A program made the position numbers and the translations under genes. From Lachnospiraceae bacterium (GTDB taxonomy: Bacteria; Bacillota; Clostridia; Lachnospirales; Lachnospiraceae): 64,000 nucleotides of DNA. The DNA lies in contig JALCKY010000001.1 in NCBI GenBank assembly GCA_022647575.1, positions 682,001-746,000 of the forward strand, written 5' to 3'. The notes below the pieces were generated by a model. It was not told the origin of the DNA. It saw nothing but the letters and a program-made list of their open reading frames with translations, and searched no databases. This document shows, piece by piece, positions 4,732 to 47,194 of this stretch. Numbering within the stretch: position 1 is the first letter of the stretch; each line of letters opens with the position of its first letter.

Positions 4732-7428
4732 TTATCGGATGTACTTCAGCAGGACATCACAGAGAGTAGCCGGATCGACCGGCTTGGCAATGTGCTCGTT
4801 CATTCCCGCATCCAGGCTCTTCTCGATGTCCTCCGCAAAGGCATCCGCGGACATCGCGATGATCGGGACTGTCTTCGCATCCGGACGGTTCATTTCCCGG
4901 ATCTTTCTGGCGGCATCGTGACCGTTCATGACCGGCATGCGGATGTCCATCAGGATTGCATCATAGGTTCCGCTGTCCGATTCCGCAAAGCGCAGGCAGC
5001 CGGTCTCACCATTTTCCGCACAGGTCACGGAAATGCCCCTCATCTCAAGAATCGCTTTGGCGATCTCCGTATTCATCGCGTTGTCTTCCACCAGAAGCAC
5101 GCGGCGGCCTTTCAATTTTTCCCATTCCTGAAGGGATTCTTTCTTTTCCGGCAGACGGTCGTCCGCTCTCTCAAAATCCAGCAGGACCGTAAACCTGGTT
5201 CCTTTGCCCAGCTCGCTTTCCACAGTGATCGTTCCGCCCATCATTTCCACCAGTTTCTTTACGATGGACAGGCCAAGTCCGGAACCTCCGACATCAGCCG
5301 TCGCCGCCTGGCGTTCCTGCGAGAACGGTTCAAAAGCCTTCGGAATGAACTCGGGGCTCATGCCGCAGCCGTTGTCCTGTATGATGATCCGGTCGTGTAC
5401 AAGGTCTTTCTCCAGCTTCACGCATTCGACCATCATGGTAATCTCCCCGTATTTCGGGGTAAATTTCACGGCGTTGGAAAGCAGGTTGATGAAAATATCC
5501 TGCAGGCGCATGGCATCGACATTGATGGTCGCCATGACCGCCCTGCTGTTGTCCAGGATGAAGTGAATGTGTTTTTCCTCCATCGACGGCCGGATGGAAC
5601 CGACAACTTTGGAAATGATCTCTCCGCAGGAAACGGGTGCGCATTTCAGCGTCGTATTCCCGCTTTCGATCTTGGAAAGCTCCAGCGTATCGTTGATCAG
5701 GGAAAGCAGGATTTTTCCCGCCTTATCGATTTTTTCCAGATAACCGTTCACGGCTGAAGGATCCTTCGACTTCCGCGCAAGACCCGTGTATCCGAGGACC
5801 GCATTCATCGGAGTGCGCATGTCATGGCTGACATTGGAAAGGAACTCCGTCTTCATCTGGTTGGCATGTCTTGCTTCCTTCAGGGCAACCGACAGCCTCT
5901 CCGCACGTTCCCTCTCCTGCTTCAGCTCTTCGGTAATATCCGTCCGGAAGAAAAGGATGTCCTTCTTCCGTTCATCCAGATAAAGGAACGTAATCCGCTT
6001 CTGCAGGAGTCTTCCCTCCTTCGACGGATACGGAATCACGACGCTGTATTCATCCTGCGTCTTCAGGGCTTCCGATACTTTCGCATAGCTGATTTTTTCA
6101 AAGGACTCTTCTGCCGCCCTGCTGCCGGCGAAATCGCCGAGGATACTCTTGATGACGGTATTGTAATTCTCCATTTTCAGCGTCACGGGCATGACCGCAT
6201 GGGCGGAAATGTACTGATAGTGGATTTTCTCCGTTGCCGTATCAATCAGGGCAATGTATTCATACTCCCGGTCCGTGATGGCGGAAATGACCTTCTCCTC
6301 TTTTTCCTGACGGTCGGTATCGTCGGAGTAGAAAATCGCCTCGATATCGCCGCTGGCGGGATTCTTCAGCATGCTGGCCGTGACCCGGATCCGGTGTGTT
6401 TCTTCTCCGTCGGTCAGCCGGTGGTATTCCGTCGTGATGCGCGTATTCTTCAGTTCAAATTCCTGCAGCAGTTTCTTCCTGCTGAATACTTTTTTAAAAG
6501 AATCCCTTTCTTCCTCTTCCGTCAGGGATTCCGCGATCCCGTTGAACAGATCGTCGACTGTCTTCCCCTTCACCAGGCTTTTCAGATAAGCGGAAGCCGT
6601 ATATTCATAGCTCCGGGTGTTCTGCGTCAGATTCAGGTGGAAAATGGAAAGTGCCTCCGGCCCTGCCGACAGCATGTCTTCCATCGCTTTTTCATACCGG
6701 CGGTTCTCTTCGACGAAGCGTGCCTTTTCCATGGCGTAAGCTGCATTGGCTTTCTGCTGGACTCCGACAAAAACCGTCAGGAGCGCGATGGCTTCCGAAA
6801 TCCCCATGACGGACAGATCCGGCAGGAGATACTGCACCACGGGCCCGAGCACCGGGAAAATGAGAAAAAGAAGGAAAAGCCTGAAGTCATACATCTTCTT
6901 CGTGTCGCTGTTCCGGATGGCCGTGACAGACGTCACCGCAATGGCCGCGATCATGAAGAGGTAGCAGAACAGAATGAACGGGGTAAAGACGTCTCCGCGG
7001 ACATAGGTTCCGGAATCATCAATATAATAAATCCATCCGGTAAACAGGTTGATCAGAAGCAGTAAGACTTCGGCAAGGGGCACGGCCGTCAGGCAGAGCG
7101 CCATATTTCCCTTCACCGGCCGGCCGTTCAGCCAGTAATAAGCATAAAACATCCAGCAGCCGCACAGGCAGACGATGCAGATGTAAAACAGGACATAGAC
7201 CAGACGATAGGCAAAGACGGATGACGGGGACGTACGGTTGCCGAAAACGATCTGCAGGGCTTCCGTAATGACGATCAGCGCATTCAGGCCCAGCATTCCC
7301 ATATAGTTTTTCCGGCTGTAATTCCGTCTTGCTTCCAGGCGGGCCGCCAGAATCAGCGGAATGAGAATGCAGATTCCGATCAGAGGAATCACGATATTTA
7401 TCCTGTCAAATGCTGTCTGTGTCATCAT
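4732..7428 (-). CDS. Hybrid sensor histidine kinase with 7TM-type N terminus and receiver domain
   Basis: About 898 aa. Domain order: roughly seven membrane segments (1-230), a coiled linker and PAS-like sensing region (240-515), HisKA with 'NVSHDMRTPMNAVLGY' (phospho-His near 535), HATPase with 'NLLSNAVKFTP' and 'DNGCGMSPEFIPKAFEPF' and a G2 box 'GSGLGLSIVKKL', then a receiver domain 'LLVEDNAMNTEIAKAIL' with the phospho-Asp in 'ILMDIRMPVMNG'. ATG 7428 is preferred over an upstream TTG because a G-rich site lies directly before it. It is 47 bp downstream of the RyR-like gene and shares its strand. No separate output regulator is adjacent, so phosphotransfer may go to a distant partner. Confidence 0.88.
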   Translation of the reverse strand: MMTQTAFDRINIVIPLIGICILIPLILAARLEARRNYSRKNYMGMLGLNALIVITEALQIVFGNRTSPSSVFAYRLVYVLFYICIVCLCGCWMFYAYYWLNGRPVKGNMALCLTAVPLAEVLLLLINLFTGWIYYIDDSGTYVRGDVFTPFILFCYLFMIAAIAVTSVTAIRNSDTKKMYDFRLFLLFLIFPVLGPVVQYLLPDLSVMGISEAIALLTVFVGVQQKANAAYAMEKARFVEENRRYEKAMEDMLSAGPEALSIFHLNLTQNTRSYEYTASAYLKSLVKGKTVDDLFNGIAESLTEEEERDSFKKVFSRKKLLQEFELKNTRITTEYHRLTDGEETHRIRVTASMLKNPASGDIEAIFYSDDTDRQEKEEKVISAITDREYEYIALIDTATEKIHYQYISAHAVMPVTLKMENYNTVIKSILGDFAGSRAAEESFEKISYAKVSEALKTQDEYSVVIPYPSKEGRLLQKRITFLYLDERKKDILFFRTDITEELKQERERAERLSVALKEARHANQMKTEFLSNVSHDMRTPMNAVLGYTGLARKSKDPSAVNGYLEKIDKAGKILLSLINDTLELSKIESGNTTLKCAPVSCGEIISKVVGSIRPSMEEKHIHFILDNSRAVMATINVDAMRLQDIFINLLSNAVKFTPKYGEITMMVECVKLEKDLVHDRIIIQDNGCGMSPEFIPKAFEPFSQERQAATADVGGSGLGLSIVKKLVEMMGGTITVESELGKGTRFTVLLDFERADDRLPEKKESLQEWEKLKGRRVLLVEDNAMNTEIAKAILEMRGISVTCAENGETGCLRFAESDSGTYDAILMDIRMPVMNGHDAARKIREMNRPDAKTVPIIAMSADAFAEDIEKSLDAGMNEHIAKPVDPATLCDVLLKYIR

Positions 7429-34937: not shown

Positions 34938-35387
34938 ATGGGACAGGATAAAAAAAAGCTGATCATTGTCGTCGGATGCGGCCGTCTGGGAAGCATGGCT
35001 GCGGGAAGCCTGTATGAACAGGGGATGGAAGTATCCGTCATCGACGAAAATGAAGATTCTTTCAAGCGTCTGCCGTCTGCTTTCGGAGGACTGACGGTCA
35101 CCGGGTATGCGACACACCTGGACATCCTGAAGAAAGCAGAGACGCCGCGTGCGGATGCCGTCATCTGTGCAACGAATCATGACAACGTCAATATCATGAC
35201 CGCTCTTCTCGTCAGGGATCTGTATCATATCCCGGAAGTATTCGCAAGGATCTACGATCCGGAAATAGCCGGCATCTATGAAGGAATGGGAATCCATACG
35301 ATCTGCCCTGCCACTCTTGCAACTTCGGAAATCCGTCATCTGCTCGGAAGTCTGAAGTCCGGAACGGAGGGATCCCATGAAAACTAG
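34938..35387 (+). CDS. TrkA-N (RCK-type) NAD-binding potassium channel subunit
   Basis: 149 aa single Rossmann domain: 'LIIVVGCGRLGSMAAGSLYEQG' (GxGxxG), acidic ribose-binding 'VIDENEDSF', then 'ADAVICATNHDNVNIMTALLVRD' and 'PEVFARIYDPEIAGIYEGMGI'. It lacks the C-terminal RCK_C ligand domain. Such subunits gate Trk/Ktr potassium uptake in response to NAD(H) or ATP. It overlaps the next trkA-like gene by 11 bp and is two genes before the TrkH-type membrane subunit. Confidence 0.88.
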   Translation: MGQDKKKLIIVVGCGRLGSMAAGSLYEQGMEVSVIDENEDSFKRLPSAFGGLTVTGYATHLDILKKAETPRADAVICATNHDNVNIMTALLVRDLYHIPEVFARIYDPEIAGIYEGMGIHTICPATLATSEIRHLLGSLKSGTEGSHEN

Positions 35388-35812
35388 AATACTTCTGATC
35401 GGCGGAATCAATAAGACACAGCTCCTTGCCCGGGAACTTCTGAAAAAAGGCTATCAGGTGACAGCCGTCAATGAAAGCCGCGACGACTGCCGCAAGCTTG
35501 CGGAAATCGAGAATCTTTCCGTCATCTGCGGTGACGGCACCAAGCCCTTTGTCCTGGATCAGGCGAGACGCTTCCGATGCGGACATCGTGATTGCGATGT
35601 GCCGTCACGACAGTGAAAATCTTGTCGCCTGCCAGATTGCGAAAATGAAGTTCGGCGTTCATAAAACGGTTGCCCTGGTCAATGATCCCGAGCATGTGGA
35701 ATTCTTCCGGAAACAGGGAGTTGATCATACGATATGCGCCCTGAAATTCTTAACCGCCTTCCTCGAACTGGAAGCCTCCGGCGGCACTGACGAACCGGAG
35801 CGGAAACCATGA
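35377..35812 (+). CDS. Second TrkA-N subunit, frameshifted as sequenced
   Basis: Starts 'MKTRILLIGGINKTQLLARELL' after a good GGAGGG site and reads a Rossmann domain up to 'GDGTKPFVLDQA'. It then meets a premature stop at 35616. Skipping one base (the A at about 35566) continues 'DASDADIVIAMCRHDSENLVACQ' and 'VNDPEHVEFFRKQGVDHTICA' to a stop at 35812 that overlaps trkH by 4 bp. The two halves join into an ordinary TrkA-N domain of about 145 aa, so this is one gene with an apparent single-base insertion, either an assembly error or a recent mutation. It pairs with the preceding subunit. Confidence 0.78.
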
Positions 35813-37284
35813 GGCGCAGGAACAATTACGGCCGGCTTCTCATTCTGATCGGGATCATTATCCTTCTGGCTATTCCGGCTTTTCTGTTTTATCCGGATGA
35901 GATCCGCTATCTCCCGGCTTTCCTCATTCCCGGAATCATCGCCGCTTCCGCCGGCGCCGCTCTGTGCTTCTTCGTCCGTCAGAAAGAGACGGATGACTCC
36001 TGGAGGTACGATCTGTATTCGGGGAGCATGACCGTTCTGTTTGCCTGGATCTGCGGCATCCTGTTTTCATCCGTCCCCTTTGTGATCGGCAATCTTCTGA
36101 CGCCTCTTCAGGCGATATTCGAGGCGGTCAGTGCCTGGACAACGACCGGGCTGTCCGTCATGGACGTCGAATCGGTTCCGTGCGTCTATCTCTACTACCG
36201 CGGCTGGATGCAGTTCTGCGGAGGCCTCGGCTTCATCCTGATCATGCTGGTCTTTCTTCAGGGCAAAAAATCCGCCATGCTTTACAGCGCCGAAGGCCAT
36301 TCGGACAGGATCCGTCCCCATCTGCGTAAAACGGTCCTCATGATTGTCGGCATGTATTTCTCCTTTCTGATTGCCGGCGTCGCCGCCTACCGGATTGCGG
36401 GAATGAATTTCCTTGACAGCATCGTCCACTGCATGGCTGCCTTGTCGACCGGCGGTTTTTCCAACCGCGCAGACAGCATCGGCGCATACAACAGCATTCC
36501 CATTGAAATCATCACGATGCTGATCATGCTGGCCGGTTCTGTCAATTTCGCAGTGATGCTGGTCCTGGTCAGAGGCCGGATCCGGAAATTCTTTGAAGCG
36601 ACGGAAGTCCGTTTCCTCGGCGTCCTCCTCGCTGTCCTCGTTCCGGTTTTAACCCTGGTTCTTTTCTGCTGCCTTTACGGCAGGCTGGGGCACAGCTTCC
36701 GGGAAGCCATTTTCAATGCGGTATCTGCCCTGACTACCAGCGGTTTTTCCACAGTTGATTATAACAGCTGGCCTCAGGCAGCCGTCGGGATCATGATTCT
36801 CCTGATGATCATCGGCGGCGGGATCGGCTCCACTGCCGGCGGCATCAAGCTTCTCCGTGTCTACATCATGCTGAACACGGTCGGAGACAGCATCCGCAGG
36901 AAGCTTTCTCCAGACAGCAGCATCCGCATCCGTCACTATACAAATGCCCAGGGGAAAATGCCGATCGAGCCTTCTCTTGTTTCCGATACCTTCGCCTTCA
37001 TCGGTCTTTACCTGACCCTGCTGATGTCCGGCAGCATTGCCGTCACGGCCCTGGAAGGCTGCTCTTTTACGGACGGACTTTTCGAATTTGCTTCTTCTCT
37101 GGGAACCGTCGGTCTTTCCATCGGCCTGACCGGTCCTTCCACACAGGCCGGGACTCTGATCGTGGAAATCATCGGCATGTTCCTCGGCCGGCTGGAAATC
37201 TTCATTGTCCTGATCGGCATCTATTCAGCGGCCGATTCCCTCTTCCGCGCTCTCCGCAGAGGCAGGAAAAAGAAAGCTGCATAG
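35809..37284 (+). CDS. TrkH/KtrB-type potassium uptake membrane subunit
   Basis: 491 aa. It forms the K+-conducting channel of a Trk/Ktr system. About ten hydrophobic segments are arranged as four M1-P-M2 repeats, with selectivity-filter loops 'SAWTTTGLSVMD', 'AALSTGGFSNRAD', 'SALTTSGFSTVDY' and 'SSLGTVGLSIGLTG', and the segment 'IGGGIGSTAGGIKLLRVYI'. ATG 35809 overlaps the preceding stop, so it is the third gene of a trkA-trkA-trkH operon. The operon ends at a hairpin terminator. Confidence 0.92.
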   Translation: MRRRNNYGRLLILIGIIILLAIPAFLFYPDEIRYLPAFLIPGIIAASAGAALCFFVRQKETDDSWRYDLYSGSMTVLFAWICGILFSSVPFVIGNLLTPLQAIFEAVSAWTTTGLSVMDVESVPCVYLYYRGWMQFCGGLGFILIMLVFLQGKKSAMLYSAEGHSDRIRPHLRKTVLMIVGMYFSFLIAGVAAYRIAGMNFLDSIVHCMAALSTGGFSNRADSIGAYNSIPIEIITMLIMLAGSVNFAVMLVLVRGRIRKFFEATEVRFLGVLLAVLVPVLTLVLFCCLYGRLGHSFREAIFNAVSALTTSGFSTVDYNSWPQAAVGIMILLMIIGGGIGSTAGGIKLLRVYIMLNTVGDSIRRKLSPDSSIRIRHYTNAQGKMPIEPSLVSDTFAFIGLYLTLLMSGSIAVTALEGCSFTDGLFEFASSLGTVGLSIGLTGPSTQAGTLIVEIIGMFLGRLEIFIVLIGIYSAADSLFRALRRGRKKKAA

Positions 37285-37292
37285 AGGCAAAA

Positions 37293-37327
37293 AAAGCGCT
37301 GCGTACCCAAACGGTACACAGCGCTTT
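37293..37327. terminator. Bidirectional terminator between trkH and the B12-locus surface protein
   Basis: AAAGCGCTG (37293-37301) pairs with CAGCGCTTT (37319-37327) and GTACC (37303-37307) with GGTAC (37313-37317). A-rich sequence lies on the left and T-rich on the right, so it can serve the plus-strand Trk operon and the converging minus-strand B12 operon. Confidence 0.85.
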
Positions 37328-37353
37328 CTGTTCTCTTTCTCTGCAGCTGATGA

Positions 37354-39885
37354 TCAGGAAATTTCTTCATCGACTGCTGTTTTGGCTGCTACCGAAACTG
37401 CATTTTCCCCGCCGAGGATCCATACCTTTCCGGCATTCCTGATGATCTGCTTCTGATCTTCATTCAGCGACTCTGCGTTTCCGTTGATCAGCACGATCGA
37501 GCCGCCGTTCTTTCCGGACAGGGAGGCACCTGCAAGTGCATCCGGATAGTTTTCGCCGGTCGCTGCAGCAGCGGCGGAAACCTTGCCGCCGTACAGTCTG
37601 GTAAGGATATCCAGGGAAGTTGCATATCTGTCTTCTCCGCCGTATCGTTCAACGTCCAGTGCTTTCAGCTGTTTGTCAACGTCAGCGCTGACGGCTCCCT
37701 GCAGGCCGATAATCATGGCTTTCTTAAACTTCCCGGCAATCGCCAGAGTTTCATCCGTCAGTTTTCCGTCAGCTCCGGTCAGCAGAATCGGAAACTTGTT
37801 CGTATAAGCATAAGATGATATCGCCAAAGCATCCGGATAATTATTTCCGGAACAGATGATGCAGGTATCCGCTGTGCTGAGTTCCGCGACTTTCTTTTCA
37901 ATCTGATCTGCCGTCTTAGTACGGTCATCTCCGAAAATGCGGTCTGCTGTGATTTTCATAGCTTCCACGGATGCTTTTACCTGATCCGTCACGGCAGCCG
38001 TTCCCCCGACAAGCAGAACGTTCTTCACACCGAGCACTGTCAGAAGTTCCGAGGCCTGTTCCGTCAGCTTATCGGGTTCTGTCAGAATGACAGGGCAGCC
38101 TTCTGCACCGGCCAGTGAAGAAGCGGCAAGCGCATCCGGCCAGTTCGCGCCGGAAGCCAGGACAGCCGTATTGCATCCGTCCGGGAATGCTTTCCTGACA
38201 ATTACTTCAGCCGTTTCATAACGGTCTTCTCCTGAAACCCGTATACTCTGCTTCATGCTGAAAAGACTTGACTTTTCTTCTATGAAACGATCATAGGCTG
38301 TCAGGGCTTCATAGGCCTGTACTGCTGCCATGCTGTTTGCGCCTCCGCCTATCGTATGTGCAAATGTTCCGTTTTCTGTATAGTAACTGCAGAGCGCATC
38401 CAGTACGCTGACATTATTTTTGATAAATCGGCTGTCTTCTGCCGGATTTACTCCGAGAGCCGTCAGCGCGATAATGACCTGAGCTGACGATTCACAGTTT
38501 TCATTTCCGTAACTGATGTACCCCCCGTCACTCTGCTGCTGTCCGGACAGGAAAGTCAGTCCCTTGTCCACTGCCGCTTTGACATCCGTGTTTGAAGAGA
38601 CATAAGGTGCCAGAGCCTGCAGGACCATGGCCGTGATATCCGGGTCGCCTGTCTTTCCGAAGAGGGCCCAGCCTCCGTCTGTAAGCTGTTTGCCCAGGAT
38701 ATATTCCACCAGTTTGTCGCGCGTCACGGTTTCCGTACTATCTGACGCAGCCGGCACTTCATACTGATTGCTGTCCATTGCAAGCAGTGCCCAGATCGGA
38801 CCGTTAAGTCCCTGCTTTGTCAGATAGCTGAAAGTATTGAGGCCCTGAAGCAGATTTATACCATCCACATAGGACGGATCCTTTCCGATGGCTGTCAGTG
38901 CCAGGATTGTACGGGAATTTTCTGTCGACTTCGTCGTTGAAAGCTGCCCCGAGGAATTGGCATTGGCCTTTACATAAGACGCCACGGAATCATAATAACC
39001 TTCGGAAACGCTGCGTCCGCTGCGGGCCAGTCCGAGAGCTATCCATTCCGTGCCGAAAGTCAGATCGTTTTTGGCTAATGCATCGCCGGTTTCCCGGTAA
39101 ATATCCGCACGCTTTGCATCGGCCGCCGATAATGCAACCGTGACGACGCAGACCGGAGCCGTGATGGCGGTTACGCTGCTTCCGTTCACTGTCTTTTTCA
39201 TTTCCGCGGAAACGACATAAGTGCCGGCCTTATGAAAAGTCAGGCTGGCTTTTCCGTCAGTATCGGTCACGGCAGACTGCACCGTTCCGTCGACTGTAAG
39301 TACCGCACCGCTGCAGGCAGAAAAGACCATTTTCCAATTTGCATCATAGCCTGCCTGTTTCAGGGCCAGGTTCAGCTTCTCTCCTGTTTCGACTGATGCC
39401 GTGGTTTTATCAAAAACAGAATAAGCCTCGGTATCCGGAAATGCCGACTGCAGGACATAGGCATCTATGGTCTGTCCGTCCGTGACTTTCTGGTCAAGGT
39501 TCATGACGGTTTCCTCACCGGATTTGACCTGATAGCCGAAATTTCCGGTACTGTCACCCCACAGGGTCTTCAGGTAAAGTCCGTAAGTCGGATCATTCAC
39601 GGAAGCATAGCCTGCAGCAGCCCCTCCTTCGTAGCACTGTTCGTGTACCGCTTTCAGGGCATCGTCAATGCTGTAGCTGTCTTTTCCTGTCAGGGTAACG
39701 GCTGTTTCAGCAACTGCCTTCCCGTCTTTTCCATTGACAATGGAGCCGTCCTTGCTGATGGTGACATAAACCGTTTCTGAGGCTGTACCTGACGCAAAGA
39801 CTGCAGCCGGCAGCATCGTAAATGTCAGGATGACTGCCAGAAGCAGTGCCATTGCCCTGGAAAATCTTCTGTTCAAAGCCTTCAT
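37354..39885 (-). CDS. CWB2-anchored surface protein with DUF4430-like and alpha/alpha-toroid domains (transcobalamin-like)
   Basis: 843 aa secreted protein. Signal peptide (1-31); DUF4430-like domain (about 35-150, 'SYSIDDALKAVHEQC', 'GNFGYQVKSGEE'); Ig-like domain (150-255); an alpha/alpha toroid of prenyltransferase-type repeats (255-555, 'ILALTAIGKDPSYVDGINLL', 'QLTDGGWALFGKTGDPDITA', 'QQQSDGGYISYGN'); three CWB2 repeats (555-843, each opening GEDRYETA, GDDRTKTA or GGEDRYATS) that bind anionic wall polymers. Toroid plus DUF4430 is the fold pair of intrinsic factor and transcobalamin, in a different order. It sits downstream of a cobalamin-riboswitch ECF operon on the same strand. B12 binding is inferred. 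Confidence 0.75.
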   Translation of the reverse strand: MKALNRRFSRAMALLLAVILTFTMLPAAVFASGTASETVYVTISKDGSIVNGKDGKAVAETAVTLTGKDSYSIDDALKAVHEQCYEGGAAAGYASVNDPTYGLYLKTLWGDSTGNFGYQVKSGEETVMNLDQKVTDGQTIDAYVLQSAFPDTEAYSVFDKTTASVETGEKLNLALKQAGYDANWKMVFSACSGAVLTVDGTVQSAVTDTDGKASLTFHKAGTYVVSAEMKKTVNGSSVTAITAPVCVVTVALSAADAKRADIYRETGDALAKNDLTFGTEWIALGLARSGRSVSEGYYDSVASYVKANANSSGQLSTTKSTENSRTILALTAIGKDPSYVDGINLLQGLNTFSYLTKQGLNGPIWALLAMDSNQYEVPAASDSTETVTRDKLVEYILGKQLTDGGWALFGKTGDPDITAMVLQALAPYVSSNTDVKAAVDKGLTFLSGQQQSDGGYISYGNENCESSAQVIIALTALGVNPAEDSRFIKNNVSVLDALCSYYTENGTFAHTIGGGANSMAAVQAYEALTAYDRFIEEKSSLFSMKQSIRVSGEDRYETAEVIVRKAFPDGCNTAVLASGANWPDALAASSLAGAEGCPVILTEPDKLTEQASELLTVLGVKNVLLVGGTAAVTDQVKASVEAMKITADRIFGDDRTKTADQIEKKVAELSTADTCIICSGNNYPDALAISSYAYTNKFPILLTGADGKLTDETLAIAGKFKKAMIIGLQGAVSADVDKQLKALDVERYGGEDRYATSLDILTRLYGGKVSAAAAATGENYPDALAGASLSGKNGGSIVLINGNAESLNEDQKQIIRNAGKVWILGGENAVSVAAKTAVDEEIS

Positions 39886-39993
39886 GATTCATTTCCTCCC
39901 TTTCTTTTCTGAGTGATTTCTGATCCGGGCTTCAGCCCGCCTGCTATAAAAAAATCCGACTCATGGTGTCCGTGAAAATCCATCTGCCTCCTT

Positions 39994-42700
39994 TCATTCC
40001 ACGAGTCCGTATTTAACTTTGATCCGGTCAAGCTTGTCCAGCATCGGCTCGGCACCGAGCCAGAGGAACAGCCAGGTTGCCGCAGCACGGACGCAGTCAA
40101 TCGGAAAACCGGTAAGATAATAAGTAAGAAGAACCGAAGGATCCGGCGTATTCATCCAGATCAGCGCCGAGACCGGATTCATGATTCCTCCGTAAATAAC
40201 GATGGAACTGAAGGCTCCGAACACGCACAGCGGCAGCCGGCCCCTTCGCAGGAAACCTTTTCGGAACAGAATACCGGCCAGAAACCCGATGAGTCCCATC
40301 GCGAACATCTGGAAAGGCGTCCACTGTCCCTGTCCGAACATGACATTGGACAGCAGCATCGTCATGGCACCGACCAGGAATCCGGTCTCTCCGCCGAAAG
40401 AAACTCCCGACAGGATCGTAATGGCAACAACCGGCTTGAACTCCGGCAAGGCAAAAAATGCTGCGCGGCCCGCCACCCCGAGCGCACAGAGGACGGCAAT
40501 CATCACCAGTTCCCGGGCCTGCGGTTTTCTTCCCTCAAAAATCATGAAGAAAGGCAGCATCATTTCCAGAAGGATCAGAAGGGCAATGAAGTAGTATTTC
40601 TTTCCGCCCCAAAGCACGATGCCGAAATAAAGCGTCAGAGGAATCAGCAGCAGAATCATCACAGAAGCCGCAGCGGTCCTCCGTGACAGTTTCCTTTTCT
40701 CTGCCGGTGTCCGTTCCGGAGTTCCCGGACGTGCGGTGCGCCTGGCAACGCATCCCGCAAACACGAATAAGGACACCAGAAAAAAGACATATAGACGAAT
40801 CTGATCCGTACCCATTGCCGTCATTCCGTTCCGGCCGATCAGCTGCGTCAGGTCCGTCACGCTCATGATCCGGATAAACAGAAACAGGGAAACCGCTCCG
40901 GATAGAACTGCACCTGCCGCACGGGGCCGGGACAGAGGCTTCGGCTTCCGGTCTGCAGAGTTTTCCGACGGTTCCGGAAGCGGCGGAAAATCATCCGGAA
41001 GCAGCGGAGCCGGCGGCACTTTCCCTCCGGTCGCCGCAATCAGGTCATCAGCCGTCACCGCATCCGGAATGAAACCGCGGGACATCCGGCTGGCGGCTGT
41101 CGTATAAAAACTGCTGCCGGCAAAAAATGCCCTGGGGGTATTTTCCGTCACAACCGATCCGTCAAAAAACAGTGCACAGTAATCGGCATATTCCGCACAG
41201 AATTCCACGTCATGGCTGACCATGAAAACCGTCACTCCGTGACGGCAGAGCATCTTCAGAATCTGTGCCAGGGTTTGCTTGAATTCCGCATCGAGCCCCT
41301 TGGTCGGCTCATCCAGCAGAAGAAGTTCCGGTTCCGGAAGCAGCACCTTGCACAGGGCAGCCCTCTGCTGCTCCCCGCCGGACAGATCATACGGATGACG
41401 GTCGAGAAGATTCTCCAGCCGGCAGAGCCGGACGGCACGGGCAATCCTGGCCTCATTTTCCGGATTCTCCGGCAGCATTTCCTGCAGGTCTTCCCGGACC
41501 GTTTTCTTCAGAAAAACCGTCTGGGGATTCTGGGGCAGCAGCCCTGTCTTTACGGAAATGTTCACTTTGCCGCGGTACGGCTTCCGCATTCCGGCAAGAA
41601 TCAAAAGAGCCGTTGTCTTGCCGGCACCGTTCCCTCCGAGCAGGGCAGTCAGCTTCCCCTTCGGAAGGCGAACGCTGAGATCCCGGATCACATCGGGCGA
41701 TGCTTCTTCGTATTTGAACCATACATGTTCCAGGACGGCAGCCGCCGGCATTTCCGCAGCGGGCTTCTTCCCTGAAGAAGCCTTTTCAGCCTTCCGGCTT
41801 TCAAAAGACTCCGGCGCTGCCGCATCCGGAAGCGCTTTAAAGGAATGGGATTTCGAAAAATCCGACAGCCATCTGCGGCCGTCCCTGACCGTCACCGGAC
41901 AGGGAGGCTCACTCTCCGATGCTGCCCAGACGCGCATGGCAGTCGGCATGGCCAGGAACATGGCGTGCCCGCTCTGCCGCAGCTGCATCCCCGCCGCCTG
42001 CGGCGTTCCGTCGGCTATCAGCTTTCCGCTGTCCAGTACCAGCATGCGGTCTGACAGCGGAAGAACCTCTTCGAGACGATGTTCGGAGAGCAGGACCGTC
42101 GTGCCGAGCTCCCGGTTGATCCTCCCGATGGCTCCCAGAAAATCGGAAGCGGCTATCGGATCAAGCTGGCTGGTCGGCTCATCCAGAATCAGGATGCCCG
42201 GCTCCATCGTCATGACAGCCGCCAGATTCAGCAGCTGTTTCTGACCGCCGGACAGCTCCGTGACATTTTTATAGAACCAATTTTCGATGCCGAAGAAACT
42301 TGCCATTTCTGCGACGCGTGCGCGGATCTCCCCGGTCGCATATCCCAGGCTTTCCATTCCGAAAGCCAGTTCATGCCATACCTTATCCGTGACAATCTGG
42401 TTATCCGGCGACTGCTGCACGAAACCGATGCCGGCAGTCTGCGTCCGCAGATCCACACTGTCGAGATGCTTTCCCTTCAAACAGGATTTCTCCGCTCCGG
42501 CGTCCATGCGGGGCAAGAACGGTTTTCAGCTGCCTTAAGAGGGTTGATTTCCCGCAGCCCGAAGGACCGCAGAGTGTCACGAATTCCCCGTTCTGCACGG
42601 AAAATGATAAATCGCAGACTGCCGGAAGTTCCTGCTCCGGATAGAAAAAAGTCAGGTTCCGAAGCTCCACGCAGGCCGGACGGATGGCTGTTTCACCCAT
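39994..42700 (-). CDS. Fused ECF transporter: EcfA-EcfA'-S component, frameshifted as sequenced
   Basis: About 900 aa after repair. First ATPase: Walker A 'GPSGCGKST' (Lys51), Q-loop '[11 protein letters not shown]', '[12 protein letters not shown]', '[11 protein letters not shown]'. Second ATPase: '[17 protein letters not shown]', '[13 protein letters not shown]', '[13 protein letters not shown]'. Then a membrane S component (about the last 280 residues, '[21 protein letters not shown]', '[20 protein letters not shown]', '[18 protein letters not shown]') that captures the vitamin. The frame breaks near 42469: skipping one base joins 'GEILFEGK' to '[11 protein letters not shown]'. ATG 42700 overlaps EcfT by 8 bp. 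Substrate cobalamin or a corrinoid is inferred from the riboswitch. Confidence 0.85.
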
Positions 42701-43604
42701 CGTTTTTTCCTCCTTCCTGCAGAATACGCCAGCTGACCATAGCCCCCAGGTCCATCAGGACCGGAAGCAGGCAGAGAAAAAGATAAACGGCAAGAAAGCC
42801 TGCTGAAGAAGGCGTCAGACTTTTAAAATCTGCGCTGGGATAATACCGGGAAGAGACACTGCCTCCGGCCCAGCCCGCAGTCAGGATCGTCCCGCAGAAA
42901 ACAAGGCAGCAGAGCGCCGCCCTGTCGCGGCGGTCAAAACGGTAAATGGAGAAAGCCGTCCTGCCCGGGAGTCCGTATCCGCGGCTGCGCATGCTGTCCG
43001 AAGTCTCAATGGCATTTTCAAAACTCCACGTCATCATGATGGAAAAAATTCTGACGCCGCTGCGGATCTTCGCGGCAGGATTTTTTCCGGATGCATTCCG
43101 GCCGATTGCCTGCTGCGATTCCCTCACGATTCTCATCTGCGTCTGGAAACGCGGTACAAAACGCAGGGCCATGCTGAGGACCAGACTGAGGGCGGGAATC
43201 ATTCTTCCGAAAAGATAGACAAACTTGTCCGTGGTCATCACGCAGTTTGCACAGGAAAACCACAGCACGACCGTACCCAGCATAACGGCTGCCGCCAGCC
43301 CGTAGAAAATGCTTTCAAGCGTCAGCGGATTTCCGTCCGGCAGCCAGGCAAGAATCGTCATTCCCGCATGTGTCAGCAATGGATTGAGAAGAGCCGTCAG
43401 AATCATCACAGGCAGAACAAACCCAAACGATTTCCCCTTTCCGAGGCGCAGGGCATAGACTGCGGCGCAGGAAAAGGAAATGATCAGGCACAGCGGGTGC
43501 ATAAGAAACATGGAGAAAACCAGAACAAGAGTAAAAAACAGAAAATTGACCAGAGGGTGACATCCCGCAAAGGCATCCTGCCGGCCGTATTTTTTATCCG
43601 TCAT
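42693..43604 (-). CDS. ecfT: ECF transporter transmembrane (T) subunit
   Basis: 303 aa. Five to six hydrophobic segments plus the long cytoplasmic coupling helices of EcfT: '[21 protein letters not shown]' and the Ala-Arg-Gly-type motif region '[19 protein letters not shown]', where the SRG motif contacts the ATPases. ATG 43604 lies directly next to the stop of the DUF4430 gene and its own stop overlaps the fused ATPase gene, so all are translationally coupled. It links ATP hydrolysis to toppling of the S component. Confidence 0.9.
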
Positions 43605-44546
43605 TCAGCCCACCGTATTGCTTCCGCCGACATCCGCTCCCAGATTGCAGGTATAAACCCATTCGATCACATCGCCGTTCTGAACGGTATAGCGCGAACA
43701 GCCATAGTTCGGAAACCAGCCGTTTACTTTATACATCCAGCCCGAATTCTCGCCGACATCGAATTCGTAGATATTTGAAATTCCTTCCACATAGGTACTG
43801 TCATAGACAGGCGTCCACTTTGCTTCAATCTGGATGCCGTTTTCTTTGCAGACACGCTGCAGAACATCTGAGACAGATTCTCCCTCAGAAAATGGAACTG
43901 CCGTACTCCCCAGAATCTGTCCGTCCGCAGGGATGATGCCTGCTTTCGACGGATCGCAGAGAGACATATTATTCAGAATGGTTCCGCAGGAAATGGAAAT
44001 CGTGCAGGTCGGATCCGGTGCAGGTGTCTCCTGCGGCGCTGCCGGAGTTTCCGAAGCAGAGGATGCTTCTGCCGGTGCCTGCGGTGTCTGATCAGCAGCC
44101 TGTGCTGTTCCCTGGTCCGCTGTCTGAGCCGTATCCTGATTTGCCGCCTGAGCCGTGTCCTGATTCGCTGCCTGTTCTGTTTCCTGAGACGATGCCTGCA
44201 GAACGCTTTCATCCGATGCCGTCTTTGCGGCAGAGGAAACTGCAGCAGAGGATGCTGCGGAAGATCTGGAGGAATTTCCTGAACCGGACTGCGTATCCGC
44301 GCCTGACGTCTTTTCTTTCGGGCCGGATGAAGTACTCTGCGTCTCCGTTGAAGAGGACTGCCCTTTCAAAAGGCTGTCTGTCTGATTAGCGCCGGAAGGC
44401 TCCGATACCGTATCTGCTTTTCCCGTTACGTTCCATCCGCGGGCACCCGGGGCACTGCCTCCGTACCAGAACGCAAATGCCAGCACAGCCAGAACCGCTG
44501 CCGCTGCAATGATCTTCCGTTTATTCCTTCCGAGCCAATCCTTCAT
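43605..44546 (-). CDS. Membrane-anchored DUF4430 protein of the B12 operon
   Basis: 313 aa. ATG 44546 has GGAAGGA before it; the upstream extension covers leader RNA. Order: short basic N terminus, one transmembrane anchor (about 12-28), a long Ser/Thr/Gln/Ala/Asp-rich low-complexity stalk with an eight-residue repeat (AANQDTAQ type), then a DUF4430 domain (last 120 residues) with 'VSDVLQRVCKENGI', 'ENSGWMYKVNGWFPNYGCS' and 'NGDVIEWVYTCNLG'. DUF4430 is the beta-domain fold of transcobalamin-type proteins. First gene behind the cobalamin riboswitch, so a surface corrinoid-capture role that hands over to the ECF transporter is likely. Confidence 0.8.
   Translation of the reverse strand: MKDWLGRNKRKIIAAAAVLAVLAFAFWYGGSAPGARGWNVTGKADTVSEPSGANQTDSLLKGQSSSTETQSTSSGPKEKTSGADTQSGSGNSSRSSAASSAAVSSAAKTASDESVLQASSQETEQAANQDTAQAANQDTAQTADQGTAQAADQTPQAPAEASSASETPAAPQETPAPDPTCTISISCGTILNNMSLCDPSKAGIIPADGQILGSTAVPFSEGESVSDVLQRVCKENGIQIEAKWTPVYDSTYVEGISNIYEFDVGENSGWMYKVNGWFPNYGCSRYTVQNGDVIEWVYTCNLGADVGGSNTVG
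44086..44205 (-). repeat. 24-bp in-frame tandem repeat in the stalk of the DUF4430 protein
   Basis: About five imperfect 24-bp units start at 44086, 44110, 44134, 44158 and 44182 and encode an eight-residue Ala/Gln/Asp/Thr repeat. The unit length keeps the frame, so stalk length may vary between strains. Confidence 0.8.
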
Positions 44547-44639
44547 GAGGTCCTTCCTGCCGCTGCCCGGAATTCTTTTCCGGCTGCCGGCGAATCCTGT
44601 CAGAAGTTCTACGGCACCCGTATATGTCCTGCATTTCCA

Positions 44640-44680
44640 AAATAAAAACCGCCGGTTTTCCATACGGAAAATCAGCGGCC
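44640..44680 (-). terminator. Intrinsic terminator, expression platform of the cobalamin riboswitch
   Basis: On the minus strand GCCGCTGATTTTCC (44679-44666) pairs with GGAAAACCGGCGGT (44661-44648) with one A-C mismatch and two G-T wobbles, a GTAT loop, followed by TTTTTATTT. It sits between the aptamer and the DUF4430 start codon, as expected for a riboswitch that stops transcription when B12 is bound. Confidence 0.82.
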
Positions 44681-44724
44681 ATTTCAATCGAAACAGGCAT
44701 ACGGAGAGAACGTCCGCTGTTTTA

Positions 44725-44968
44725 GGCCCATCTGTCGTGCAATTCTCCTGGCTCGCGTTCTGGGAAAATCTTTCCCGCGTATGTTTCCTACCTTCTCACA
44801 GATTTCTCTGCAATGGCGGACTTTCGTCCATGCGGTATCTTACCGTTTCGGAACATCCTCACGCTCACAGTGCCGTTCGCGCCGGGTTTTCAACCCGTTT
44901 TCTTTTGGCTGCTGCCTGACTCCTTCAGAGTCTTTGCAGCAAACAGCCACACTCCATGCTATCGGACC
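44725..44968 (-). ncRNA. Cobalamin riboswitch
   Basis: Read on the minus strand the element shows the conserved cobalamin-aptamer order. A possible P1 starts with GGTCC (44968-44964) matching GGGCC (44729-44725). A long P2 hairpin follows, then core segments GGTTGAAAACCCGGCGCGAA and GGCACTGTGA (B12-box type), a peripheral GC hairpin region, and the 3' core GAGCCAGGAGA near 44752-44742. The usual GGGAA segment reads GAAAA. It lies in a leader of about 470 nt after a strong promoter and before a terminator, so it should repress the DUF4430-ecfT-ecfA-S operon when adenosylcobalamin is plentiful. Confidence 0.88.
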
Positions 44969-45021
44969 ATTATTCAGTTTATTTAATAGCAGAAAATATT
45001 CTGCTGTCGTCTTACAGGTTC

Positions 45022-45049
45022 ATTATAAGACATGCGGTCTCAAAGTCAA
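45022..45049 (-). promoter_or_regulatory. Promoter of the B12 uptake operon
   Basis: On the minus strand TTGACT (45049-45044) and a perfect TATAAT (45027-45022) are separated by 16 bp, about 45 bp upstream of the riboswitch aptamer. Confidence 0.8.
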
Positions 45050-45086: not shown

Positions 45087-46599
45087 TCATCTTTGCGGAC
45101 GCATAAGTTCTGTGCATTTCACGCACATCAGCAATACCCTTCCGGCAGCCATCGCTATTATCAGTGCCAGCCCTGTCTTCCAATCAAGCCAATAAGCTGC
45201 TGCCGCAAAAAGCACTGCAAGCAGCACATCTGCGATTTCCTGTTTCATGATTTTTATGCCCAATATTTTTCCCAGCAGCATATCTGAAATGACCGCACGA
45301 AAGACAACGGCTGCTGTCATGCTGACTGCAGCAAATAGCAGATTATCCATTATGTATGCAGAAAAGATTCCCAGGGAAATCCCGAGCAGAAGAGAAAAAA
45401 TCTCTATTTTCAGAAGAGCTGCCTGCTGATGGATAACCTTGAAGAATGTAATTCCAATCAGGTTCATTTTGCAGTCAAAGAAGCAAATCGGCAGAAGAAC
45501 AGAAAGATAGCCGATACTTTCAGCATAATCCGGCAGCCACGAATTCAGGATGAAACGAAAAGGAAAATACAGAATATACAGTACCGGAAGAATATAAAAT
45601 AAAATATCCGTAAGTTTCCGGAAATAGATATTCACTGCATCCGCTTTCATTCTTCGTAAGGCCGGGAATAAAACCATTCCTGTCTGGGACGCGAATGTCA
45701 CAGCGATATTAATCAATGTCAGAGAGAAAGAAACCTTTCCAAATGCAAGAATGCCCCATTTGAAATCAATGATCTGACGTCCCGCTCCAAGAATAAGTAT
45801 GGAACAGATATTTGCCGCCATCAGGCTGATTCCGGTTTTTATACTGATGATTCCCTCGGCTTTCCCAACAGAGAAACTGACCGGTACAGATTTAAAGAAA
45901 GGATAAATATGAACCAGTAAATAGAAAAGGGCAAAAAAGAGCATCAAGTATATAAAGGAGCATCAGCCAGTACACGTTAACAGAATTGAGCATGATTAAT
46001 GAGCATTGAACCCCCAGAAAAAGCAGACGATTGATGAATAATCGACTTTGAATAAAGATTCGTCTCATTGACAGCCTGAAAAACATATCCGAAAAAGGTG
46101 TGGCAGGTATAGACAAGAAAGAAAAGCAGCGTGCAGAGAATGAAATGCCCGGCCTGCGGAACCACCATGCTCTTCCTGGAGCTCTACCATAACCACCATC
46201 GCGTCCCTCTGGATGAAATGTACCGAAACCAGCCGCCGTGCAGAATCGTGTACGGTAAAAACAGCAGCCGCTGCCAGAGCGGCCGCCAGAATGAGGAAGG
46301 CTTCCCTGATAGATGAAGCCGAAACAAAACTGACTTTTTACGGAACGGTAGTCTATGTGATGGATATCCGCTCCACCGAGCCTCAGATAGATTCCTTCAT
46401 TGAGTCCGAGTGCCAGGCAGGGAACATAATTTGCATAAAAAACGAACAGCTGCCAGTAGCTGTAATCATTGATACTCAGGTATTTCGGCAGAATCAGATT
46501 CATGACACAGCTTACGACAAGGGAAACAGCCTGCTCTATAAAGGCAAATGAGAAGTTCTTCTTCAGCTGCCGGTTTATTTTCTCGGCCTTTATCTCCAT
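45087..46599 (-). pseudogene. Polysaccharide flippase (Wzx/MATE-like), multiply frameshifted
   Basis: The coding trace begins 'MEIKAEKINRQLKKNFSFAF' (ATG 46599) and 'ILPKYLSINDYSYWQLFVFY', typical of polysaccharide exporters. It then changes frame near 46305, 46170, 46030-46080 and 45945, each time by +1, before running to a stop at 45087. Segments in each frame read as plausible membrane helices (for example 'EAFLILAAALAAAVFTV', 'GHFILCTLLFFLVYT', 'CSLIMLNSVNVYWLMLLYIL'). Repaired, it would be about 500 aa with 12-14 helices, flipping lipid-linked glycans. Either a decaying gene or a badly resolved AT-rich stretch. It follows the methyltransferase by 10 bp. Confidence 0.7.
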
Positions 46600-46609
46600 T
46601 TTCGCCGAA

Positions 46610-47194
46610 TCACGTCTGTACTTTGGAAAAAGTGCACGCATACAGATTCTCTCCCAAAAGGAAATCATCCGCACAGGCAAAACCTCCGGCGGCCATCATC
46701 TTCTTCAGGGCGTCCGGCGAAATCCGCACTTCCGGCGGGGCTCCTTTTTTTGCCTCAGGCCGGAATTCAATCACCGCTGCGGTTCCTTCTTTTCTCAGGA
46801 TGCGGAACATCTGGCGGATCATCTCCTCCTGATCTTCCACCTCATGCAGAACCGTGCAAAGAAGCGCGATATCCGCGGCAGAATCCGGAACCTCTTCAAT
46901 GGACCCGCAGACGGAAATGAATCTGCAGCCTTCAGCGTTTTCTCCTCCGTCGGTATTCCGGAAGGATGCCCTGAGATATTCCTGCATCGGTTCCGATGTA
47001 TCCACGGCAAAGATTCCGCCGGCTTCCAGTTCCCGTGCCGCCTTAACAAAAAGACCGGTTCCCGCTCCGATGTCGCAGAAAGTCTTCGAAGGCATCAGCC
47101 CGATTCTCATCAGCGTATCCTTCGGATTCAGTTCCGCCACCCTCCACGGCGATTCCAGTTTTTCTTTCATCCGGGCAACAAGATCAGGGGTCAT
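46610..47194 (-). CDS. Class I SAM-dependent methyltransferase
   Basis: 194 aa. SAM-binding motif I 'TFCDIGAGTGLFVKAARELE', acidic motif II 'GIFAVDTSEPMQEYL', motif IV region 'AADIALLCTVLHEVEDQEEM' and 'ILRKEGTAAVIEFRPEAK' follow the methyltransferase 11/25 fold order. AGAGAGGAACC precedes ATG 47194. The substrate is unknown; location between a GT-C-like protein and a flippase suggests, but does not show, a link to surface glycan formation. Confidence 0.85.
   Translation of the reverse strand: MTPDLVARMKEKLESPWRVAELNPKDTLMRIGLMPSKTFCDIGAGTGLFVKAARELEAGGIFAVDTSEPMQEYLRASFRNTDGGENAEGCRFISVCGSIEEVPDSAADIALLCTVLHEVEDQEEMIRQMFRILRKEGTAAVIEFRPEAKKGAPPEVRISPDALKKMMAAGGFACADDFLLGENLYACTFSKVQT

Follow-up and report, generated by a model that had tools for sequence, protein, structure and literature searches.

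We analysed a 64,000-nucleotide stretch of a Lachnospiraceae bacterium genome (GCA_022647575.1, JALCKY010000001.1, positions 682,001-746,000; hereafter the window), focusing on a locus at 37354-45049 that joins an energy-coupling factor (ECF) importer to two putative surface proteins (Table 1). On the minus strand, a leader with a cobalamin riboswitch is followed by genes for a DUF4430 protein, EcfT, an EcfA-EcfA-S fusion and a CWB2 wall protein carrying a toroid. An initial annotation, made from the DNA letters, had proposed this order on a single strand, and the map of open reading frames (ORFs) confirms both. The coupled starts it described for the first three genes are also present: the DUF4430 and EcfT genes directly adjoin, and EcfT and EcfA share 8 bases. 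All four genes may form one transcript, as a simple scan of the minus strand at 37200-40100 turned up neither promoter-like nor terminator-like sites; this region includes the 108 bases that separate the last gene from the fusion.

Table 1. Features of the locus, in order of transcription (window coordinates).
Feature	Position	Strand	Evidence
Sigma-70-like promoter, TTGACT-16-TATAAT	45022-45049	(-)	11/12 consensus matches
Cobalamin riboswitch aptamer, RF00174	44721-44969	(-)	Rfam 32.3 bits (gathering score 31.5)
Intrinsic terminator hairpin with U run, between aptamer and first gene	44647-44680	(-)	Folding energy
Membrane-anchored DUF4430 protein ('REC'), 313 aa from ATG at 44546	43605-44546	(-)	PF14478
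EcfT	42693-43604	(-)	ORF; profile match to PDB EcfT chains
EcfA-EcfA-S fusion; reading frame interrupted around codon 77 (of 901)	39994-42700	(-)	ORF pieces 42401-42700 and 39994-42516
S component, CbrT relative	39997-40602	(-)	6fnp_A, E 2.1e-12 (20-row profile)
Wall protein, 843 aa: N-terminal domain, middle part, toroid, three CWB2	37354-39885	(-)	

The leader points to control by cobalamin. The aptamer named in the initial annotation passes the RF00174 gathering score, narrowly, and is the sole match above a gathering score within the window; the genome gave no second RF00174 match. Our own covariance model, R1, was built from 11 aptamers taken from the window and eight related loci; it gives the window aptamer, one of its training members, 124.4 bits. 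The predicted terminator is also borne out, its hairpin folding at -20.5 kcal/mol (z -3.64) with none of 200 shuffles equally low, and it probably serves as the expression platform of the riboswitch. This hairpin was absent from the output of a simple consensus scan for promoter and terminator sites. The promoter called earlier is present as a promoter-like site, but shuffles of the same region yield a mean of 0.9 sites as good, which makes a promoter-like site alone weak evidence.

The genes behind the leader supply the parts of an ECF transporter, namely two EcfA ATPases, EcfT and an S component. A 14-member EcfT profile matches EcfT chains in the PDB (best E 3.9e-15), and Pfam CbiQ is detected in 9 of its members; window EcfT alone gave no Pfam CbiQ match. 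In the fusion, Pfam recognises two ABC domains and one ECF S domain. The fused EcfA-EcfA-S protein of the initial annotation therefore holds in its domains but not in its frame, which in this assembly is split between two ORFs. The shorter piece corresponds to residues 1-77 of the 901-aa protein P0241 at 100% identity and the longer to residues 74-901 at 98.8%. Since both match one protein, an intact form of the fusion exists, and P0241 stands for a database cluster of 17 member sequences.

The broken frame could mean that this strain carries a pseudo-operon in decay, which we consider improbable. The intact copy is nearly identical over the matched stretches, the remaining three genes have open frames, and a neighbouring TrkA-like gene (34938-35812, plus strand, upstream of TrkH) is likewise spread over two frames, which makes assembly indels a fair guess.

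The S component gives a guide to the substrate. Its profile found a single PDB match at E<=0.001, 6fnp_A, followed by 4hzu_S at E 0.11, so that homology to CbrT stands above homology to other S components of known structure. NCBIfam reported only the folate and riboflavin S families, beneath their cut-offs. 6FNP is the ECF-CbrT complex of Lactobacillus delbrueckii, reported to carry out ATP-dependent uptake of cobalamin and cobinamide (PMC5997447), and one PDB EcfT sequence found by our EcfT profile is also part of 6FNP. The two systems differ in organization. The ECF module used by CbrT also serves other S components, and no extracellular partner is named in the text consulted (PMC5997447); in the window system the S component forms one protein with two ATPases, intact in relatives, and has surface proteins in its operon.

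The substrate might instead be another cobamide, cobinamide or a cobalt compound, with the riboswitch reporting the end product, an alternative that is possible though unlikely and that would be compatible with the clamp proposed below. In C. difficile, a cobalt ECF importer is encoded behind a cobalamin riboswitch (PMC11477304); CbrT accepts cobinamide as noted, and the window genome encodes homologues of the salvage proteins CobS, CobU and CobT. On the other hand, the S domain matches ECF_trnsprt and CbrT, and no match to CbiM, the cobalt S component, appeared at E<=0.1. On these grounds we rejected cobalt import. It can also be argued that a transcobalamin-like clamp would be superfluous for a metal, a point that leaves cobinamide and other cobamides unaffected. 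The genome further yields three B12-binding-domain matches, and the MetH activation domain is matched once, weakly and over a short length. A BtuFCD-CobSUT locus lies elsewhere in the genome and gave no RF00174 match. The ECF operon is thus the only one with a detected cobalamin riboswitch, yet perhaps not the sole route of uptake.

Searching named genomes with a 30-row DUF4430 alignment returned at least 597 matching stretches, 567 of them confirmed, and our locus counts refer to the best 80, which from their record titles we take to be Clostridia and other Bacillota. DUF4430, EcfT and a fused EcfA-A-S occur together in 57 of these 80 loci. Another 13 have EcfT with no fused EcfA-A-S detected; in two of these (L023, L054) the S component is a separate ORF, and others reach a contig edge. 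The remaining 10 lack EcfT at the threshold used. A toroid gene ends no more than 1.2 kb upstream of the DUF4430 gene in 68 of the 80. A phmmer survey recovered the same recurrent set, comprising a toroid protein of ~550 aa, the DUF4430 protein, EcfT and an EcfA-EcfA-S of ~890 aa, often preceded by one very large surface protein. In several loci, surface proteins of ~1,000-2,800 residues that combine toroid and DUF4430 precede the operon (L030:1174-8307, L062:1-8280). Within the window's genus, 3 of 25 genomes have a strong DUF4430 match and two more match at about 1e-4.

Many of these relatives carry the riboswitch. An Rfam scan of 21 loci, taken irrespective of prior matches, found RF00174 in 8. 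At E<=1e-4, 50 of the 80 loci have an R1 match upstream of DUF4430 on the operon strand; a cut-off of E<=1e-10 leaves 35, and the eight training loci of R1 are included. Rfam agreed in 17 of 23 further loci selected by R1 (8/8, 3/8 in a group of mostly weak R1 matches, and 6/7), which brings the Rfam total to 25 of 44 loci scanned. The weak R1 matches are doubtful, because L055 and several others of this kind are without Rfam support. Among the 30 loci with no R1 match, the DUF4430 gene lies within 4 kb of the sequence start in 14 and farther in 16. Two loci from the window's genus carry RF00174 at 52.6-56.2 bits, and the highest-scoring relative reaches 107.5 bits; in other families of the order, RF00174 was found at one of three loci.

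The two surface proteins of the window appear to divide between membrane and wall. The first gene product contains the DUF4430 domain that is also found in TCN proteins (PMC4350170), matched by PF14478 at E 5.8e-19 within the longest ORF, 43605-44687. From the N-termini of relatives, its likely start is the ATG given in Table 1, which lies downstream of the terminator. The wall protein begins with an N-terminal domain (residues 31-152), followed by a middle part modelled at low confidence, an alpha/alpha toroid (~256-545) and three CWB2 domains (~546-843). Our predicted model of this protein (A8) is good over the toroid and poor over the first 220 residues, about which we therefore make no claim from the model.

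The initial annotation had described the wall protein as a CWB2-anchored toroid/DUF4430 protein; the toroid and the three CWB2 domains are there, and the DUF4430 part is not recognisable. Residues 31-152 gave no Pfam match at E<=1 and no match to the DUF4430 profile (hhalign probability 0.4%), and we rejected this assignment. They belong instead to a small family (A10; window 39430-39795, minus strand) with the pattern AGYA...GLS..KLWG that is shared by wall proteins of these operons. A profile match of this domain to the PDB entry Tako8 (E 6.5e-8) spans 32 columns only, and we took it as chance; other matches were weaker. The anchor varies on the same toroid domain, with CWB2 in the window and SLH repeats in relatives, where they form the C-terminus of the toroid protein of L003 (Pfam) and, by eye, of further loci. 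One of the two loci from the window's genus has CWB2 on its large surface protein.

What these surface proteins might do is suggested by the predicted fold of a relative. Relatives encode toroid and DUF4430 as one natural chain (e.g., L048:18207-19595), a form split over two genes in the window. One such relative, modelled with AlphaFold2 at pLDDT 89, was searched against the PDB with Foldseek, and ranks 1-15 were all transcobalamin, haptocorrin or intrinsic factor, with matches to the animal B12 carriers spanning nearly the whole chain. The animal carriers (2BB6, 4KKI, 2PMV) share with it an alpha toroid followed by a beta domain. Unlike them, the window proteins are bacterial, predicted to be anchored in wall or membrane, encoded by two genes and tied to an ECF importer. 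The one-chain arrangement is no isolated case: 120 proteins among the matches listed (P0121-P0240), 119 of them at >=90% coverage, have their domains arranged as in intrinsic factor. In its beta half, the fused model also matches a bacterial domain, 3U7Z of Ruminococcus gnavus, which was deposited as a putative metal-binding protein and whose CATH superfamily includes the beta domains of animal B12 carriers (PMC13385337).

Sequence comparison did not reach this likeness. DUF4430 and toroid profiles run against PDB sequences had no transcobalamin or intrinsic factor chain among the matches listed. The eukaryotic cobalamin-binding (alpha) family of Pfam matched neither the window protein (E<=0.1) nor three fused relatives (E<=1). 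Alignment A4 combined toroid-only with DUF4430-only rows, and its consensus suggested that unrelated parts had been mixed; we set it aside, together with A3, A5 and A7.

The window toroid modelled alone is predicted to resemble terpene cyclases more closely than animal B12 carriers. This raises the idea that the toroid is an enzyme, terpene-cyclase-like or sugar-active, that acts on the substrate or the wall. Class II terpene cyclases (squalene-hopene cyclase type) rely on a catalytic DxDD motif, whose fourth acid is missing in all 54 rows of our toroid alignment A6; the window wall protein, which is not a row of A6, reads DPDIT at that position. A terpene cyclase was therefore rejected. Wall-binding domains are present, moreover, and in relatives the toroid is joined to DUF4430 with the same domain order as in the animal carriers. 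We regard an enzymatic toroid of any kind as very improbable.

The initial annotation had also suggested surveying genomes for co-occurrence of the gene set. Of 398 genomes of the phylum, 30 have an S component match at E<=1e-40 and 31 a DUF4430 protein match at E<=1e-25; 27 genomes have both, three S alone and four DUF4430 alone, so the two are found together in 27 of the 34 genomes having either. In 23 of the 27 they share a contig within ~6 kb, and in four they lie on different contigs. Two of the four DUF4430-only genomes were inspected (L109, L110), and in both a more divergent EcfT-EcfA-A-S set adjoins the DUF4430 gene, with a riboswitch in L109 and without one in L110. Two of the four different-contig genomes were also inspected. 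In L111 the DUF4430 gene (6095-7018) lies directly behind a cobalamin riboswitch, the S component being on another contig; no ECF gene was found in this 14-kb stretch. L112, also without ECF neighbours, shows no riboswitch.

These counts bear on whether the surface proteins belong to uptake at all. The ECF complex might import B12 alone, the surface proteins serving another purpose such as adhesion or wall structure and merely sharing the riboswitch. Purified ECF-CbrT does transport cobalamin in liposomes (PMC5997447), and relatives often hold very large surface proteins within the same operons. Against a surface-only role stand the frequent co-occurrence of DUF4430 and S, the abutment of the DUF4430 and EcfT genes, the B12 carriers that head the Foldseek matches of the fused relative, and the riboswitch placed before a DUF4430 gene without ECF neighbours in L111; L112 has no such riboswitch. 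We judge the surface-only role to be distinctly unlikely.

We therefore return to B12 acquisition through an ECF importer and transcobalamin-like surface proteins, which the initial annotation had put forward and which is supported in part; the one-frame fusion and the DUF4430 part of the toroid protein did not hold. Corrinoid acquisition is supported by the riboswitch here and in many relatives, the homology of S to CbrT and the predicted folds. Families, operon structure and predicted folds together give good support to reading the locus as an operon for a corrinoid importer and transcobalamin-like surface proteins. Going further, we propose that the operon probably serves uptake of corrinoids (B12): a transcobalamin-like clamp, with the toroid as its predicted alpha half and DUF4430 as its predicted beta half, would load an ECF importer whose S component is related to CbrT. 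The initial annotation had suggested a relay from the wall protein to the tethered DUF4430 receptor and on to S; we favour two halves of one clamp over two such successive receptors, because relatives fuse toroid and DUF4430 in that order.

Human transcobalamin shows that a clamp made of two separate proteins is workable. Human holo-transcobalamin assembles from separately expressed alpha and beta domains only upon addition of cobalamin, with the same cited for intrinsic factor (PMC5599065), and isolated carrier domains bind cobalamin (PMC11107200). By analogy, the bacterial system would operate as follows. When adenosylcobalamin is scarce, the riboswitch, if it has the OFF action expected of the RF00174 family, would let transcription pass the terminator. 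The toroid protein would sit in the wall through CWB2 and the DUF4430 protein in the membrane through a hydrophobic N-terminal segment. B12 would bridge the two, as it does the alpha and beta domains of human transcobalamin (PMC5599065). The membrane-tethered DUF4430 half, whose gene runs start-to-stop with EcfT, would then release B12 to the S component, with EcfA-A powering uptake. Capture and hand-over of B12 by bacterial surface proteins are thus our inference.

We know of no external binding partner for any ECF importer. A conserved external clamp, if true, would be a new way to load such an importer, where substrate binding is ascribed to the S component in the membrane (PMC5997447). A broader proposal, for which we see an even chance, is that Bacillota own a bacterial intrinsic factor, a two-piece B12 clamp that docks on an ECF importer as an extracellular binding protein, and that the animal carriers share its ancestry, one-chain versions being already present in Clostridia. 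The origin of intrinsic factor and transcobalamin would thereby gain a bacterial comparison. A functional parallel is BtuG of Bacteroides, which also captures corrinoids at the surface, has B12 transport neighbours and, at the locus studied, a riboswitch; it differs in being a beta-propeller outer-membrane lipoprotein with BtuB as partner, another fold altogether (PMC6143338). A gut-genome survey regards finding the B12 transporters of numerous genomes as an open problem (PMC6593275), for which the S-DUF4430 pair is a direct candidate. The titles, abstract openings and passages we searched, which excluded subscription papers (Rodionov 2009, J Bacteriol, among them) and preprints, contained no description of a DUF4430-toroid-ECF operon.

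Several other genes accompany these loci. Next to the window operon, two overlapping ORFs in different frames (45087-46680, minus strand) look by eye like one multi-pass membrane protein; neither piece has a Pfam match at E<=0.01. A xylose-isomerase-like TIM-barrel protein lies between EcfT and EcfA in L074 (Pfam) and, by eye, in L029 and L076, and the same type stands beside the BtuFCD genes of the window genome (G000 C2, L102:3110-3865). Pfam also identifies a diphthamide-synthase-like protein in the operon of L074 and a DUF2284 protein in that of L011.
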